Of a stretch of 64,000 nt of DNA, positions 1 through 30,501 are shown one piece after another. The translations under genes and the position numbers were made by a program. Source of the DNA: Anaerolineae bacterium (GTDB lineage: Bacteria; Chloroflexota; Anaerolineae; DUEN01); NCBI GenBank assembly GCA_025060615.1, contig JANXBS010000002.1, forward strand, positions 194,860-258,859, written 5' to 3'. The notes beneath the pieces are model-generated. The model was given only the letters and a program-made list of their open reading frames with translations. It was not told the origin of the DNA and did not search any database. How positions within the stretch are numbered: position 1 is the stretch's first letter; each line of letters starts with the position of its first letter.

Positions 1-353
1 ATCAAATCGGGCAGGAGGAACTCGAGGAGGACACCTGGATTGATCTGACTCTACACGAGCCGGTTGAGCCCGAATTCCGCGTCGGCCAGATGGGGTTGGG
101 GTACGAAGAACGCCAGGGGCGCGTCGTCGTCATTGTACAGGAGCTGCTGACGGAGGAGGAAGCAGAGGTACGCGAGCCGATGGTGGCTCGCTTCTGGATG
201 AACAAGGCCCAGGCCCGAGCACTGAGCCGACATGCCGCTGAGGTCGTCGCCGCTGGCCGCCCGACTTGCCCGTTATGCGGCAATCCTATCGACCCCGTCG
301 GCCACTTCTGTCCACCTAGTAACGGCCATCATCGACTTCGAGAGATCCATTAA
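1..353 (+). CDS. DUF3090 family protein, 3' part
   Basis: This gene enters from the left edge, so its start is not seen; the reading frame is open from base 3 to the TAA at 351-353. The visible 116 residues carry the motif FRVGQMGLGY, a stretch of acidic strand-forming sequence, the helix ALSRHAAEVVAAGRP, and a C-terminal CPLCG...GHFCP...NGH segment that looks like a small metal-binding knuckle. This tail is typical of DUF3090 proteins, which are known from Actinobacteria and Chloroflexi and have no settled biochemical role. In several genomes the family sits near a histidine phosphatase and SCO1664-type proteins, but the upstream context is outside the window. Recognition rests on the C-terminal signature. 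Confidence 0.85.
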   Translation, partial: QIGQEELEEDTWIDLTLHEPVEPEFRVGQMGLGYEERQGRVVVIVQELLTEEEAEVREPMVARFWMNKAQARALSRHAAEVVAAGRPTCPLCGNPIDPVGHFCPPSNGHHRLREIH

Positions 354-363
354 CCTTCCAACG

Positions 364-394
364 GTCAGACGCCGATGTAAATTCAGCGTCTGAC
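364..394. terminator. hairpin between convergent genes
   Basis: A perfect 9-bp stem (GTCAGACGC with GCGTCTGAC) with a 13-nt loop lies between the end of the DUF3090 gene and the end of the minus-strand ABC ATPase gene. It has only a weak T-rich tail on either strand. It probably acts as a shared bidirectional terminator. Confidence 0.55.
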
Positions 395-403
395 TGTTCT
401 CAT

Positions 404-1252
404 TCATCTCCCTCTCCATTCAGCGCCGTTGTCTGCCAACACGCCGATCGCTTGACGCACCTGTCCAGCGAGGGCAGCAAAGCGTTCGTGAGCCATCATC
501 TGCAGCGTGCGCGGCCGCGGCAGATCCACGGTGATCTCCCTAGAGATGCGACCGGGTGGCCCTTCCATCACCAGAACCCGATCCGCTAGAAACACCGCCT
601 CGGCGATGCTATGGGTGACCATGACCACTGTGGGGCGACGCAGCAGCCAGATTCGTTGCAGCTCCAAGTTCATGCGCTCACGCGTCAGCGCGTCCAGCGC
701 GCCGAATGGCTCATCCAATAACAACAAGGTGGGCTGATGCACCAGGGCGCGCGCAAGAACCACTCTCTGTTGCATCCCACCCGACAGTTGGCGCGGATAG
801 ACCTCTTCATGCCCTTTTAACCCCACCAGTTCGATTAGGGATTGGGCTCGCGCCTTCGCCTCTTCCGCTGGGACGCCGGCGATCTCTAGCGGCAGCATAA
901 CATTGGCGAGCACCGTCCGCCACGGCATCAGATTCGCTCTCTGAAAGACGAAACCAATACGCCGGCCAGGTGCTGTGATCGGCTCGTTTCCCAACATTAC
1001 CCACCCACGCGTCGGCGTCAACAGCCCCCCCAGGATGTGCAGCAACGTGGTCTTGCCGCATCCCGAAGCGCCCACCACGCATACAAATTCGCCGGGACAA
1101 ACCTGCAAAGAGATATTATCCAGCGCTAAAACAGGGCCACGAGCGCCATTGTAGGCCTTGGTCAGCTCTTCAGCCCGTAGCAGCACCTCATCGTAGCTGG
1201 TATCCAGGCATACCGGCTCTTCGGTTAGCTTAGTGCACCTTTGATCGCTCAT
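404..1252 (-). CDS. ABC importer ATPase (nitrate/sulfonate/thiamine-precursor family), likely riboflavin uptake
   Basis: The 282-residue protein is the ATP-hydrolysing subunit of an ABC importer. It shows Walker A GASGCGKTT, the Q-loop region FVFQRANLMPWRTVLANV, the signature LSGGMQQR, Walker B LLLLDEPFGALD and the H-loop VTHS, as in the SsuB/TauB/ThiZ group. The start is placed at the ATG at 1252 because it overlaps the stop of the lipoprotein gene as ATGA, a typical translational-coupling junction. A longer reading frame upstream would run deep into that gene. It is the last gene of the permease-lipoprotein-ATPase operon behind the FMN riboswitch at 3451-3611, so riboflavin or a flavin precursor is the likely cargo (inference). 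The cargo cannot be read from this subunit alone. Confidence 0.92.
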   Translation of the reverse strand: MSDQRCTKLTEEPVCLDTSYDEVLLRAEELTKAYNGARGPVLALDNISLQVCPGEFVCVVGASGCGKTTLLHILGGLLTPTRGWVMLGNEPITAPGRRIGFVFQRANLMPWRTVLANVMLPLEIAGVPAEEAKARAQSLIELVGLKGHEEVYPRQLSGGMQQRVVLARALVHQPTLLLLDEPFGALDALTRERMNLELQRIWLLRRPTVVMVTHSIAEAVFLADRVLVMEGPPGRISREITVDLPRPRTLQMMAHERFAALAGQVRQAIGVLADNGAEWRGR

Positions 1253-3392: not shown

Positions 3393-3450
3393 CATGCTAT
3401 CCATAGCACTCGCTTGCCGCTAGGGCGTAGCTCGTGCGGCATCCAACGAT

Positions 3451-3611
3451 CACCTTCTTCCATCCGGACTATACCGTCGGCTCCGGCCTCTCACCGGATC
3501 CACCGCCAGCCCTCACGGGCTTCAGCGGGTCGCGGGCTCGGTCTTCACGGACCATACCACCGATCGGGAATTGCCCCACTTACAGCGGGACTCACCCTGC
3601 CCCGAAGGTGT
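3451..3611 (-). ncRNA. FMN riboswitch (RFN element)
   Basis: Read on the minus strand this is a full FMN aptamer. In order it shows the P1 strand CACCTTC, GGGGCAGGGTGA, AATTCCCGATCGGTGGTA, CCGCGACCCGC, GGTGAGAGGCCGGAGCCGAC, GGTATAGTCCGGATG, and the closing P1 strand GAAGGTG. These are the strongly conserved segments of the RFN element. It sits between a good promoter and a terminator hairpin and controls the ABC importer genes at 404-3236. Binding of FMN is expected to reduce their transcription. The family assignment is read directly from sequence; the mode of control is inferred from the hairpin order. Confidence 0.95.
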
Positions 3612-3640
3612 GAACCATATTCAATTGTCAGCTCGTGAAA

Positions 3641-27904: not shown

Positions 27905-28960
27905 ATGCCGAGGATTTTCGATGTGGTGGAGGCCCCTAATCAGCGGGAGAATGATATCGTGGTGCGCGTGCCTGAGGTGGGGGCCGGCGATTTCCGGATC
28001 GGTTCTCAGGTAATCGTGCGGGAGAGCCAGACGGCGGTCTTCTTCCGGGATGGCAAGGCGTTGGACACGTTCGGCCCTGGACGTCACACCATCACCACGG
28101 CCAACATCCCTCTGCTGATCAATCTGCTAGGGTTGGCCTCCGATGGGCGTAGCCCCTTCACGGCCGAGGTGTATTTCGTTAACATGCGCGAGTTCCTCGA
28201 CATGAAGTGGGGCACGCCAGAGCCGATCGCTCTCCGCGATCCCGATCTGGGGCTGGTGCGTCTGCGGGCGTTCGGTACCTACTCGATGCAAGTGAATGAC
28301 CCACAGATGTTCGTCGCCAAGATCGTAGGCACCCAGGGGATTTACCAGACCAGCCAGATCGAGAACTTTCTGCGCGGGATCATCGTGGCCAGCTTAACTG
28401 ATCTGCTGGGGGAGAGCCGGAAAGGGCTGTTCGATCTACCCGCATACTTCGATGAGATAGGCGCCGGCATCAAGGCGAAGATCCAAGATGCCTTCCAACA
28501 GGTCGGTCTGACGCTGAAGCAGTTCTACGTGAGCTCGATCAGTCCCACGGAGGAGACGGCCAGGGCCATTGACGAGCGGGCCAGCATGGGCGCGATCGGC
28601 AACATGCAGGCATATCTGCAATTTCAAGCGGCGCGGGCGATGCGCGATGCAGCGGGGGCGGAGGGCGCAGCCGGCGGCACGATTGGCGCCGGGATGGGAC
28701 TAGGCGCTGGCATCGGCCTAGGGGCGGCCATGGCCCAGGCGATCTCCCAGGCGCTGAGCCCGCAGACGCGACAGGCGATAGAACAGCCTATAGCAAGTAG
28801 CATGCCGGAGGTGATGACGCCGGCCGAGGCCGCGGCGTATCTGCGCGTCTCAGAAGCAGACATCATGGCCCTGATTGAGAGCGGGGAGCTGAAAGCCCGC
28901 CGCATTGGCAACCAGGTGCGCATCAGCAAAGCGGCGCTGAACGAGTTTCTCAAAGGGTAA
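27905..28960 (+). CDS. SPFH/band 7 protein fused to an excisionase-type helix-turn-helix
   Basis: The 351-residue protein has an N-terminal SPFH domain without a signal anchor (about residues 15-215: IVVRVPEVGAGDFRIGSQVIVRESQ, TFGPGRHTI, FLRGIIVASLTDLLGE, FYVSSISPTEETARAID), a glycine/alanine-rich linker (about 245-275), and a C-terminal MerR/excisionase-like domain (MTPAEAAAYLRVSEADIMAL, RRIGNQVRISKAALNEFL). SPFH proteins assemble into membrane-associated rings. The HTH_17 module normally binds DNA or, in such fusions, may act as a protein-binding tag. It closes the DUF2207 cluster and is followed by a strong terminator. AAAGGAGCG precedes the ATG. Confidence 0.88.
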   Translation: MPRIFDVVEAPNQRENDIVVRVPEVGAGDFRIGSQVIVRESQTAVFFRDGKALDTFGPGRHTITTANIPLLINLLGLASDGRSPFTAEVYFVNMREFLDMKWGTPEPIALRDPDLGLVRLRAFGTYSMQVNDPQMFVAKIVGTQGIYQTSQIENFLRGIIVASLTDLLGESRKGLFDLPAYFDEIGAGIKAKIQDAFQQVGLTLKQFYVSSISPTEETARAIDERASMGAIGNMQAYLQFQAARAMRDAAGAEGAAGGTIGAGMGLGAGIGLGAAMAQAISQALSPQTRQAIEQPIASSMPEVMTPAEAAAYLRVSEADIMALIESGELKARRIGNQVRISKAALNEFLKG

Positions 28961-28969
28961 TCAACAGCT

Positions 28970-29008
28970 AAGGGGTGAGCGAAGGCACTACCTTCGCTCA
29001 CCCCTTTT
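28970..29008 (+). terminator. strong intrinsic terminator after SPFH gene
   Basis: A perfect 16-bp stem (core GGGGTGAGCGAAGG) with a 5-nt loop is followed by TTTT. It ends the DUF2207-SPFH operon. The minus-strand side has no T tract, although the stem would also stop or cap the RNA coming from 29361. Confidence 0.9.
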
Positions 29009-29361
29009 AGGGACAAAGAGACCCCAAGCAACCTTCCAGCTTCTCACCGCTCCGGGTAGCTCCCACTGCCGTTCGCCGCTTCCGCAGCAACTGCTCAGTG
29101 TCACCTACCACACCTCTCTCTGCTTTCGCTTTCTGGACATCCCCTCTGCGCTCTCTTGCGAGACCACAGCTACGGGATTGCCAGTAGCTTTATCGCTTTG
29201 AGAGGCCTCCGCCGGCTTTGCCTGTTAGAGCCTCAGGTAATTCCTTACCTGATATCAGCTCTTCCAACGGCTAAACCGACCTCGGTTCCGATGAGCGCTT
29301 TCCAATTGCTTGGGGTTCTCTCCCCCTTGGAGATGCTCCTCACGGCCCATCTCCTCAGGGC
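29008..29361 (-). ncRNA. large structured RNA, HEARO/omega-RNA-like, standalone
   Basis: No open frame explains this block, but on the minus strand it has a strong promoter and dense complementarity. A long closing helix pairs ACCCCAAGCAA (29306-29316) with TTGCTTGGGGT (29021-29031) across 290 bases, extended by AGAGA/TCTCT. Inside are the hairpins AGAGC...CAGGTAAGGAATTACCTG...GCTCT, GCTAC...GTAGC, TCTCGCAAGAGA, AGCGAAAGC, and GGTAG/CACTG...CAGTG/CTACC closed by a GGAA loop. The elements CGGAACCGAGGT, TAGCTGTGGTCT and GGGAGCTACC recall HEARO RNAs, the omega RNAs of IscB/IsrB. No IscB/IsrB gene is nearby. A structured RNA is well supported; the family name rests on my memory of the consensus. 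Confidence 0.7.
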
Positions 29362-29367
29362 ATTTAT

Positions 29368-29396
29368 AGTATAACTGAAAAATAGGCTCTTGTCAA
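29368..29396 (-). promoter_or_regulatory. consensus promoter of the structured RNA
   Basis: On the minus strand TTGACA (29391-29396) and TATACT (29368-29373) are exactly 17 bases apart, within an AT-rich spacer. Transcription should begin near 29361. It is among the best promoters in the window and no protein start follows it. Confidence 0.88.
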
Positions 29397-29672: not shown

Positions 29673-30311
29673 TCAATCGCTGTCCGCTTTCGCGCTGATG
29701 AAGGTTGGCATTTCCATCCGGCTCAGCAGAGACGCCATGAGCATCGTGTGGGCGCTCCACTCAATGCGCTCCAGCACATCGAACGCATCGTTCAGGTCGC
29801 GGCCAACGGTCACCACGCCGTGCCAGGCTAGGATCAGCCCCAGCCCGTGCTGGCTCAGCGCGCTCCGACGCGAAGCCAACGCAGCTACTACCGCCTCGGC
29901 CAGCTCTGGGGAGTGCGCCGGCACCGGGCGTATCACCGGGATCTGCCCGAATTTCTCCGTGTAGCCGTTGGTCGGGACGATAGGCTGGCCTAGCGCTGCG
30001 AAGACGTTGGCGTATTTGGGGTGTGCGTGGATCACCCCGTTTACCTCGGGAAACGCGTCGTAAATCGCTAGATGCATTGCGCTCTCCCGAGAGAGCATTC
30101 CCTCGCCGGCGATCATCCGGTGTTGACTGTCCAAGACCACTACCTGCTCAGGCTGTAAATTCCACTGATACTTGCTGCCGGCATAACGGGGGCTCATGTA
30201 GATGTAGCCGTCCACGCGATGGCTGACGTTTCCGCCAGCTGAGTTCGTGAGAAAGCGTTCATACATGAGCCGCCCGATCTCGACCACTTGTCGTCGCGGA
30301 TCTATCGACAT
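29673..30311 (-). CDS. class II aldolase (fuculose-phosphate aldolase-like)
   Basis: The 212-residue protein belongs to the zinc-dependent AraD/FucA aldolase family, which cleaves or epimerises sugar phosphates. Seen are SAGGNVSHRVDGYIYMSP, the acid residue in MLSRESAMHLAIY, the metal ligands of IHAHPKYANVFAAL, and a third histidine in LAWHGVVTVG. The ATG at 30311 has AGGAGG six bases upstream, so a longer frame reaching 30380 is rejected. The natural substrate is not known; fuculose, rhamnulose or methylthioribulose phosphates are used by relatives. The gene stands alone. Confidence 0.88.
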   Translation of the reverse strand: MSIDPRRQVVEIGRLMYERFLTNSAGGNVSHRVDGYIYMSPRYAGSKYQWNLQPEQVVVLDSQHRMIAGEGMLSRESAMHLAIYDAFPEVNGVIHAHPKYANVFAALGQPIVPTNGYTEKFGQIPVIRPVPAHSPELAEAVVAALASRRSALSQHGLGLILAWHGVVTVGRDLNDAFDVLERIEWSAHTMLMASLLSRMEMPTFISAKADSD

Positions 30312-30501
30312 GGAAAGCCTCCTGTCATTTTGCCTTGCGCTTGCTTTTCCATTATCATCCCAAACCAATGGATTGCGCAAATGATGGCCTTAGGAGCAAG
30401 CTCTTCACGGAGCACCATGTTTGGCCTCAGGAGCGAAGGTTTTCTATGCGTGAAGTTCATAGCTGTTACCACGCAAGCGAAAGCGGAGGCAGTTAAGTAT
30501 A

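Follow-up and report, generated by a model that had tools for sequence, protein, structure and literature searches.

An uncatalogued structured RNA from an Anaerolineae bacterium, with relatives commonly encoded beside putative nuclease and HPRT genes

What kind of transcript is encoded on the minus strand between positions 29022 and 29361 of the window, by which we mean the whole 64,000-nucleotide stretch of DNA analysed here? The first-pass annotation had described a standalone HEARO- or omega-RNA-like RNA with its own consensus promoter. That there is a standalone structured RNA with a promoter of its own is supported by the promoter, the fold and the homologues. The promoter that had been pointed out, TTGACA-17-TATACT, is present on the minus strand at 29396-29368 (-35 hexamer TTGACA, 29391-29396; -10 hexamer TATACT, 29368-29373) and matches the consensus at 11 of 12 positions in a promoter motif scan for which sites with at least nine of 12 matches averaged 1.1 per 2.5 kb of shuffled sequence. 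From the promoter spacing we infer a transcript start at about 29361. Promoter, fold and covariance-model match together delimit the entire predicted RNA, from this start through the end of the closing helix P1, as 29022-29361 (minus strand), a predicted non-coding RNA of about 340 nt. The reported lack of a protein frame agrees with the ORF list, which holds no minus-strand ORF of at least 80 aa in the RNA body; a TTG-started minus-strand frame from 29031 overlaps the 3' end of the RNA only.

The neighbouring genes lie outside the RNA. Upstream there is a class II aldolase gene (29673-30380, minus strand), and the convergent neighbour (27905-28960, plus strand) encodes an SPFH/Band 7 protein whose C terminus carries an HTH_17 DNA-binding domain, an unusual pairing. 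Between the RNA and the SPFH gene we find the hairpin previously noticed on the 3' side, a perfect 17-bp hairpin without a U-run at about 28970-29006; because it directly follows the SPFH stop (28960), it is probably a terminator for both convergent genes. Short stretches resembling this hairpin were also seen by blastn in two other genomes (G001 and G043). A search of the whole window against Rfam at the gathering score gave nothing except an FMN riboswitch (3448-3613, minus strand, 93.9 bits), and no tRNA or tmRNA was found in the window.

The minus strand of 28960-29364 folds at -212.8 kcal/mol, compared with -143.6 +/- 5.4 kcal/mol for dinucleotide shuffles, and the fold z of the RNA is -12.8, with none of 100 dinucleotide shuffles as good. 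The many nested stems and long closing helix described at first sight are thus confirmed. P1 consists of 12 uninterrupted pairs between its 5' strand CCCCAAGCAATT (29304-29315, all 12 positions paired) and its 3' strand GGTTGCTTGGGG (29022-29033), the two strands being about 290 nt apart. An outer extension, AGAGA (29317-29321), pairs with TCTCT at 29021-29017 and is replaced by GGG(G)/CCCC in the homologues. Inward of P1 there is a 4x4 internal loop, GGAA/GGAA (29300-29303 opposite 29037-29034), which also occurs in G030, G063 and G068 and is partly altered elsewhere. This is followed by three and then seven more pairs, P2 and P3, whose 5' strands AGC-G-CTCATCG occupy 29289-29299 and whose partners lie at 29040-29038 and 29049-29043. 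All of these elements, and those that follow, are on the minus strand.

Inside P3 is a junction carrying three arms. Arm A (29211-29280), the size of which differs greatly among relatives, is formed by the helix GTCGGTTT/AAGCCGGC and a nested hairpin. Arm B (29112-29206) has the helix GCCTCTC/GAGAGGT, an internal loop AGCGATAAAGC / GCGAAAGC and the tip TCTCGCAAGAGA, while arm C (29055-29109) has GGTAG/CTACC and a nested hairpin. We do not claim a kink-turn in the arm-B loop, which reads GAUGAR/RGA in several relatives and GAUAAA/GAAA in the window. Outside the closing helix, a 5' hairpin (29323-29360) begins at the predicted transcript start. It comprises a CCCT/GGGG lower stem, a GA/AA loop and, at 29354-29329, the GGAGATG/CATCTCC upper stem, which is the hairpin already picked out in the first-pass annotation.

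A blastn search returned one short match (L004), in a genome of the same class, with the same layout as in the window: promoter, 5' hairpin, CCCCAAGTAATTGGAAAGCGC ... GCTGGAAGGTTACTTGGGG and T-run. The RNA is present in all three genomes of the order to which L004 belongs. A covariance model, R1, was built from two other genomes of this order with the window sequence left out, and it recovers the window RNA from end to end (positions 1-304) with 52 bits and E 1.4e-14, together with new copies in G001, G051, G359, G310 and G316. Searching a fixed set of 400 genomes from the phylum with a further model, R2, brought in G201, G068 and G099 as well as compact versions of 119-129 nt in family f77, which belongs to another class. 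More copies were recognised beside nuclease-HPRT genes in G002, G005, G010, G017, G031, G033, G270, G466, G468, G632 and G722, and also in three complete f66 genomes of 1.36-1.52 Mb; a complete f66 genome of 1,469,720 bp likely carries one, at L134 2382-2561. The search for further copies brought to light relatives across one phylum, apparently Chloroflexota, in two of its groups. Exact-pattern scans of genome and viral contigs were fruitless, giving 22 chance matches and none with the closing helix, so that the spread of the family was traced by covariance models. The pattern matches L008-L013, L018 and L019 were also due to chance. We rejected an R1 match in G091 (L054), which is a plain inverted repeat, and an R2 match in G252 (E 0.099). 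The window RNA had no blastn match among plasmids and phages.

The shortest copy, in G468, is about 115 nt long and the longest reach about 340 nt, with the closing helix conserved around a variable interior, and the fold z of the relatives ranges from -2.8 to -14.4. Hairpins of differing sequence occupy the equivalent 5' place in G001, G002, G030 and G051; the 5' hairpin is absent in G359, G201 and G099, where the RNA starts at the closing helix. Two RNA modules stand in tandem behind one promoter in G031 (L089, about 190-830, plus strand; joint fold z -14.4), and G643 has two compact copies (L070 and L092), one adjoining nuclease-HPRT genes and the other elsewhere. In some genomes tRNA genes lie closely upstream of the RNA (L075 5681-5921; L134 2106-2182).

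Compensatory changes were sought in the homologues and were found in the helices. In a seven-sequence alignment, which, having been fitted to the model, is biased towards its structure, 90% of cells are paired compared with 71% in shuffles, double changes occur in 62 of 93 pairs and none of 500 shuffles reaches any of these measures. Controls in which the structure was slid along the alignment gave 35-43% pairing. The register of P1 is fixed by its ends, and here C-G/U-A, A-U/G-C and G-C/C-G exchanges are seen between genomes; in G017 the helix is wholly rewritten with its pairing kept. P2 and P3 amount to 11 pairs in the family alignment, each of which is double-changed somewhere. A TTGACA-type promoter lies shortly upstream of all eight of the first copies, the window included, and the homologues are preceded by the same hexamer or by TTGAC. 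with a variable last base. In six of these eight the closing helix runs into a clear U-tract, the exceptions being the window and G051; as this is so in most copies, the helix probably also serves as a long-range terminator stem. A bulged-G type motif, AGUA/short helix/GAA, was noticed post hoc in the 3' arm of nine of 21 copies (0.7 expected from shuffling); the window copy lacks it.

Neighbours played no part in finding 16 of the copies, which came from genome-wide model or blast searches; 12 of these 16 have, within 0.4 kb, a pair of genes coding for HPRT and a 126-aa protein. The linked copies are those of G001, G030, G051, G063, G068, G090, G201, G310, G316, G359, G420 and G613, and the unlinked ones are those of the window genome (G000), G099 and G709 and the C20 copy of G643. 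The present genome does have the gene pair, at C19:71788 (L081), with the RNA on another contig (C2). Normally the RNA is convergent with the HPRT gene; the exception is G051, where it lies on the other side of the pair and diverges from the nuclease gene. The 126-aa protein is encoded in eight of eight clear RNA-positive genomes compared with about 133 of the 400 overall, for which the hypergeometric value of 1.3e-4 is optimistic, since the sampled genomes are related and kinship is ignored. Nuclease-HPRT loci with no recognisable RNA occur in G023 and G038. Structure, covariation, promoters, family and gene linkage are all established by computation.

The HPRT passes TIGR01203. The 126-aa protein has no Pfam match on its own, and a profile of its family matches the T7 endonuclease I structure 3cae with E 1.3e-5. 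The nuclease alignment (A9, to which the protein of this genome, L081 1501-1866, minus strand, contributes) shows conserved E15, P52-D53 and E64, with invariant E, PDF, E and K. The family thus resembles T7 endonuclease I (PF05367; PDB entries 3cae, 2pfj, 1m0d and 1fzr) in its profile and in the E, PDF and E positions. It differs in having ELTT where T7 endonuclease I has ExK, the usual lysine being replaced, and in being linked or fused to HPRT. We regard it as a putative T7-endonuclease-I-like nuclease. About a third of the genomes of the phylum have this linked nuclease family. Nuclease and HPRT are fused into one ORF in f77, and the fusion in f66 has a GAF domain as well, as in a 478-aa GAF, T7-endonuclease-I-like and HPRT protein from a complete 1.47-Mb genome (L134 2570-4006, minus strand). 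A reading of the nuclease as part of a defence system was set aside, the PADLOC matches being weak only.

In our view, the promoter, the closing helix with its U-tract and the conservation of the RNA across differing surroundings together indicate a trans-acting RNA rather than a leader, an antisense RNA or a guide. The linkage is kept despite a change of side and the fusion of the proteins, which favours a ribonucleoprotein with the nuclease-HPRT product. An uncatalogued family of trans-acting structured RNAs, probably working with this product, is accordingly the interpretation that we prefer, with somewhat more confidence than doubt. A sigma-A-type promoter would start the RNA at the 5' hairpin; at the other end, the 3' strand of the long helix P1, which in most relatives leads into a U-tract, would probably stop transcription and seal the ends together. 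The sequence-variable arms would fold within the frame set by this helix. The RNA would then act in trans, most likely as the RNA component of a ribonucleoprotein with the T7-endonuclease-I-like nuclease/HPRT protein or proteins. Expression, action in trans and the protein partner are in each case deduced from sequence. A more speculative extension, which we hold only as a long shot, is a phylum-wide particle in which a branched RNA clamped by its closing helix is bound by the nuclease and by a PRPP- and purine-binding HPRT (with a GAF sensor in f66), so that an RNA-controlled nuclease would answer to the purine or nucleotide state of the cell.

The chief rival in our ranking is a housekeeping-type trans-acting RNA, comparable to raiA/ModT, that has inherited its location; its partner would be another protein, the ribosome or RNA polymerase, and the adjacency to nuclease-HPRT would be conserved gene order. 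The linkage could indeed be of this kind, with no physical partnership. The own promoter and terminator, the normally single copy, the broad spread and the conserved frame with variable arms suit such an RNA well, as do the copies that lie elsewhere in G000, G099 and G709 and for one of the two in G643. For ModT, synteny with its neighbours has been judged a poor guide to function (PMC11706538). Against this, the adjacency holds across families and in both groups of the phylum, despite the side change in G051 and the protein fusion. We therefore see this explanation as a real possibility that is clearly the less probable of the two.

We consider it improbable that the element acts in cis, be it as a terminator or antisense regulator of the convergent gene or as a leader of the riboswitch type. 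Such a role would fit the usual convergent position about 10-80 nt from the HPRT stop, and in G051 a same-strand ORF does follow the RNA. However, the RNA has its own promoter, the gene downstream of it usually runs in the opposite direction, and the RNA is kept while its neighbours differ in G000, G099 and G051.

We give still less credence to the original proposal of an orphan HEARO or omega guide RNA that would serve, in trans, an IscB or IsrB encoded elsewhere. The RNA is standalone and highly structured, its size is roughly as expected and it has a promoter of its own, and it was on these features that the proposal could draw. However, RF02033 has no match at E up to 10 in 601 bases at the locus or in the whole genome, nor any in the relatives tested. 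This genome also lacks PF14239, the N-terminal family of IscB/IsrB, and the relatives yielded two sub-threshold matches, in G030 and G063 only, each covering 45 of 174 positions. A guide had been suggested at the 5' end, where we find a conserved hairpin or, in some relatives, no 5' part at all; as the hairpin starts at the predicted transcript start there is no room for a variable guide. Most copies are vertically syntenic across families and not transposon-like. Nor does any match to an RNA family point to a TnpB reRNA. We reject the HEARO/omega identity on the RF02033, PF14239 and guide-region results, and the window RNA is not a CRISPR-like guide RNA. An intron or a diverged housekeeping RNA of known type (6S, RNase P, tmRNA or SRP) is dismissed as readily, since, for all that a standalone, normally single-copy RNA with a strong promoter recalls one, Rfam with permissive filters gives only chance matches at the locus (none of them HEARO) and no family in the relatives tested, the window has no tRNA or tmRNA, and 6S RNA (RF00013) is separately present in 15 of 18 genomes, among them the present one, at G000:C1:303867-304047, with no 6S match at the window locus.

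The RNA family is previously uncatalogued and absent from Rfam 15. None of the papers searched describes an RNA of this kind or its nuclease-HPRT link. We know of no other combination in which a nuclease is joined or linked to HPRT. With neither a known RNA family nor a nuclease-HPRT-RNA system to match it, we rate the family as new in kind. A survey of non-coding RNAs in 50 genomes covers Dehalococcoides, for which its main text names the rdhA motif only (PMC11109978). Spread across much of a phylum and outside Rfam 15, the family would be among the few broad function-orphan non-coding RNA families beyond the well-studied phyla, and the nuclease-HPRT linkage gives it a specific, testable candidate partner.

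Comparison with known systems places the RNA as follows. It shares with the HEARO RNA (RF02033) and the IscB-IsrB omega RNA the character of a standalone structured RNA of a few hundred nucleotides; it differs in that a covariance match is lacking, as are a guide region and any sign of a mobile element, and its genome encodes no IscB/IsrB. Like 6S RNA it has a closing stem, its own promoter and a single copy; it is multi-branched, whereas 6S RNA is a rod with a central bubble. At about 600 nt, OLE is larger than the window RNA, as are ROOL and GOLLD. These three are likewise ornate bacterial RNAs, of which OLE is described as working as a ribonucleoprotein (PMC12286853, PMC9723947); the window RNA differs from them in its neighbours and has no match to their covariance models, or to that of raiA/ModT, at E 10 at the locus or in the relatives. 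The raiA motif or ModT RNA, too, is normally single-copy and standalone, has a conserved structure, is without an assigned biochemical function and has been shown to act in trans (PMC11706538). The present family occurs in different phyla from raiA/ModT and is set apart by its long-range closing helix and its strong nuclease-HPRT linkage. If orphan structured RNAs of the ModT type are regarded as one kind, the RNA described here would join that loose group.
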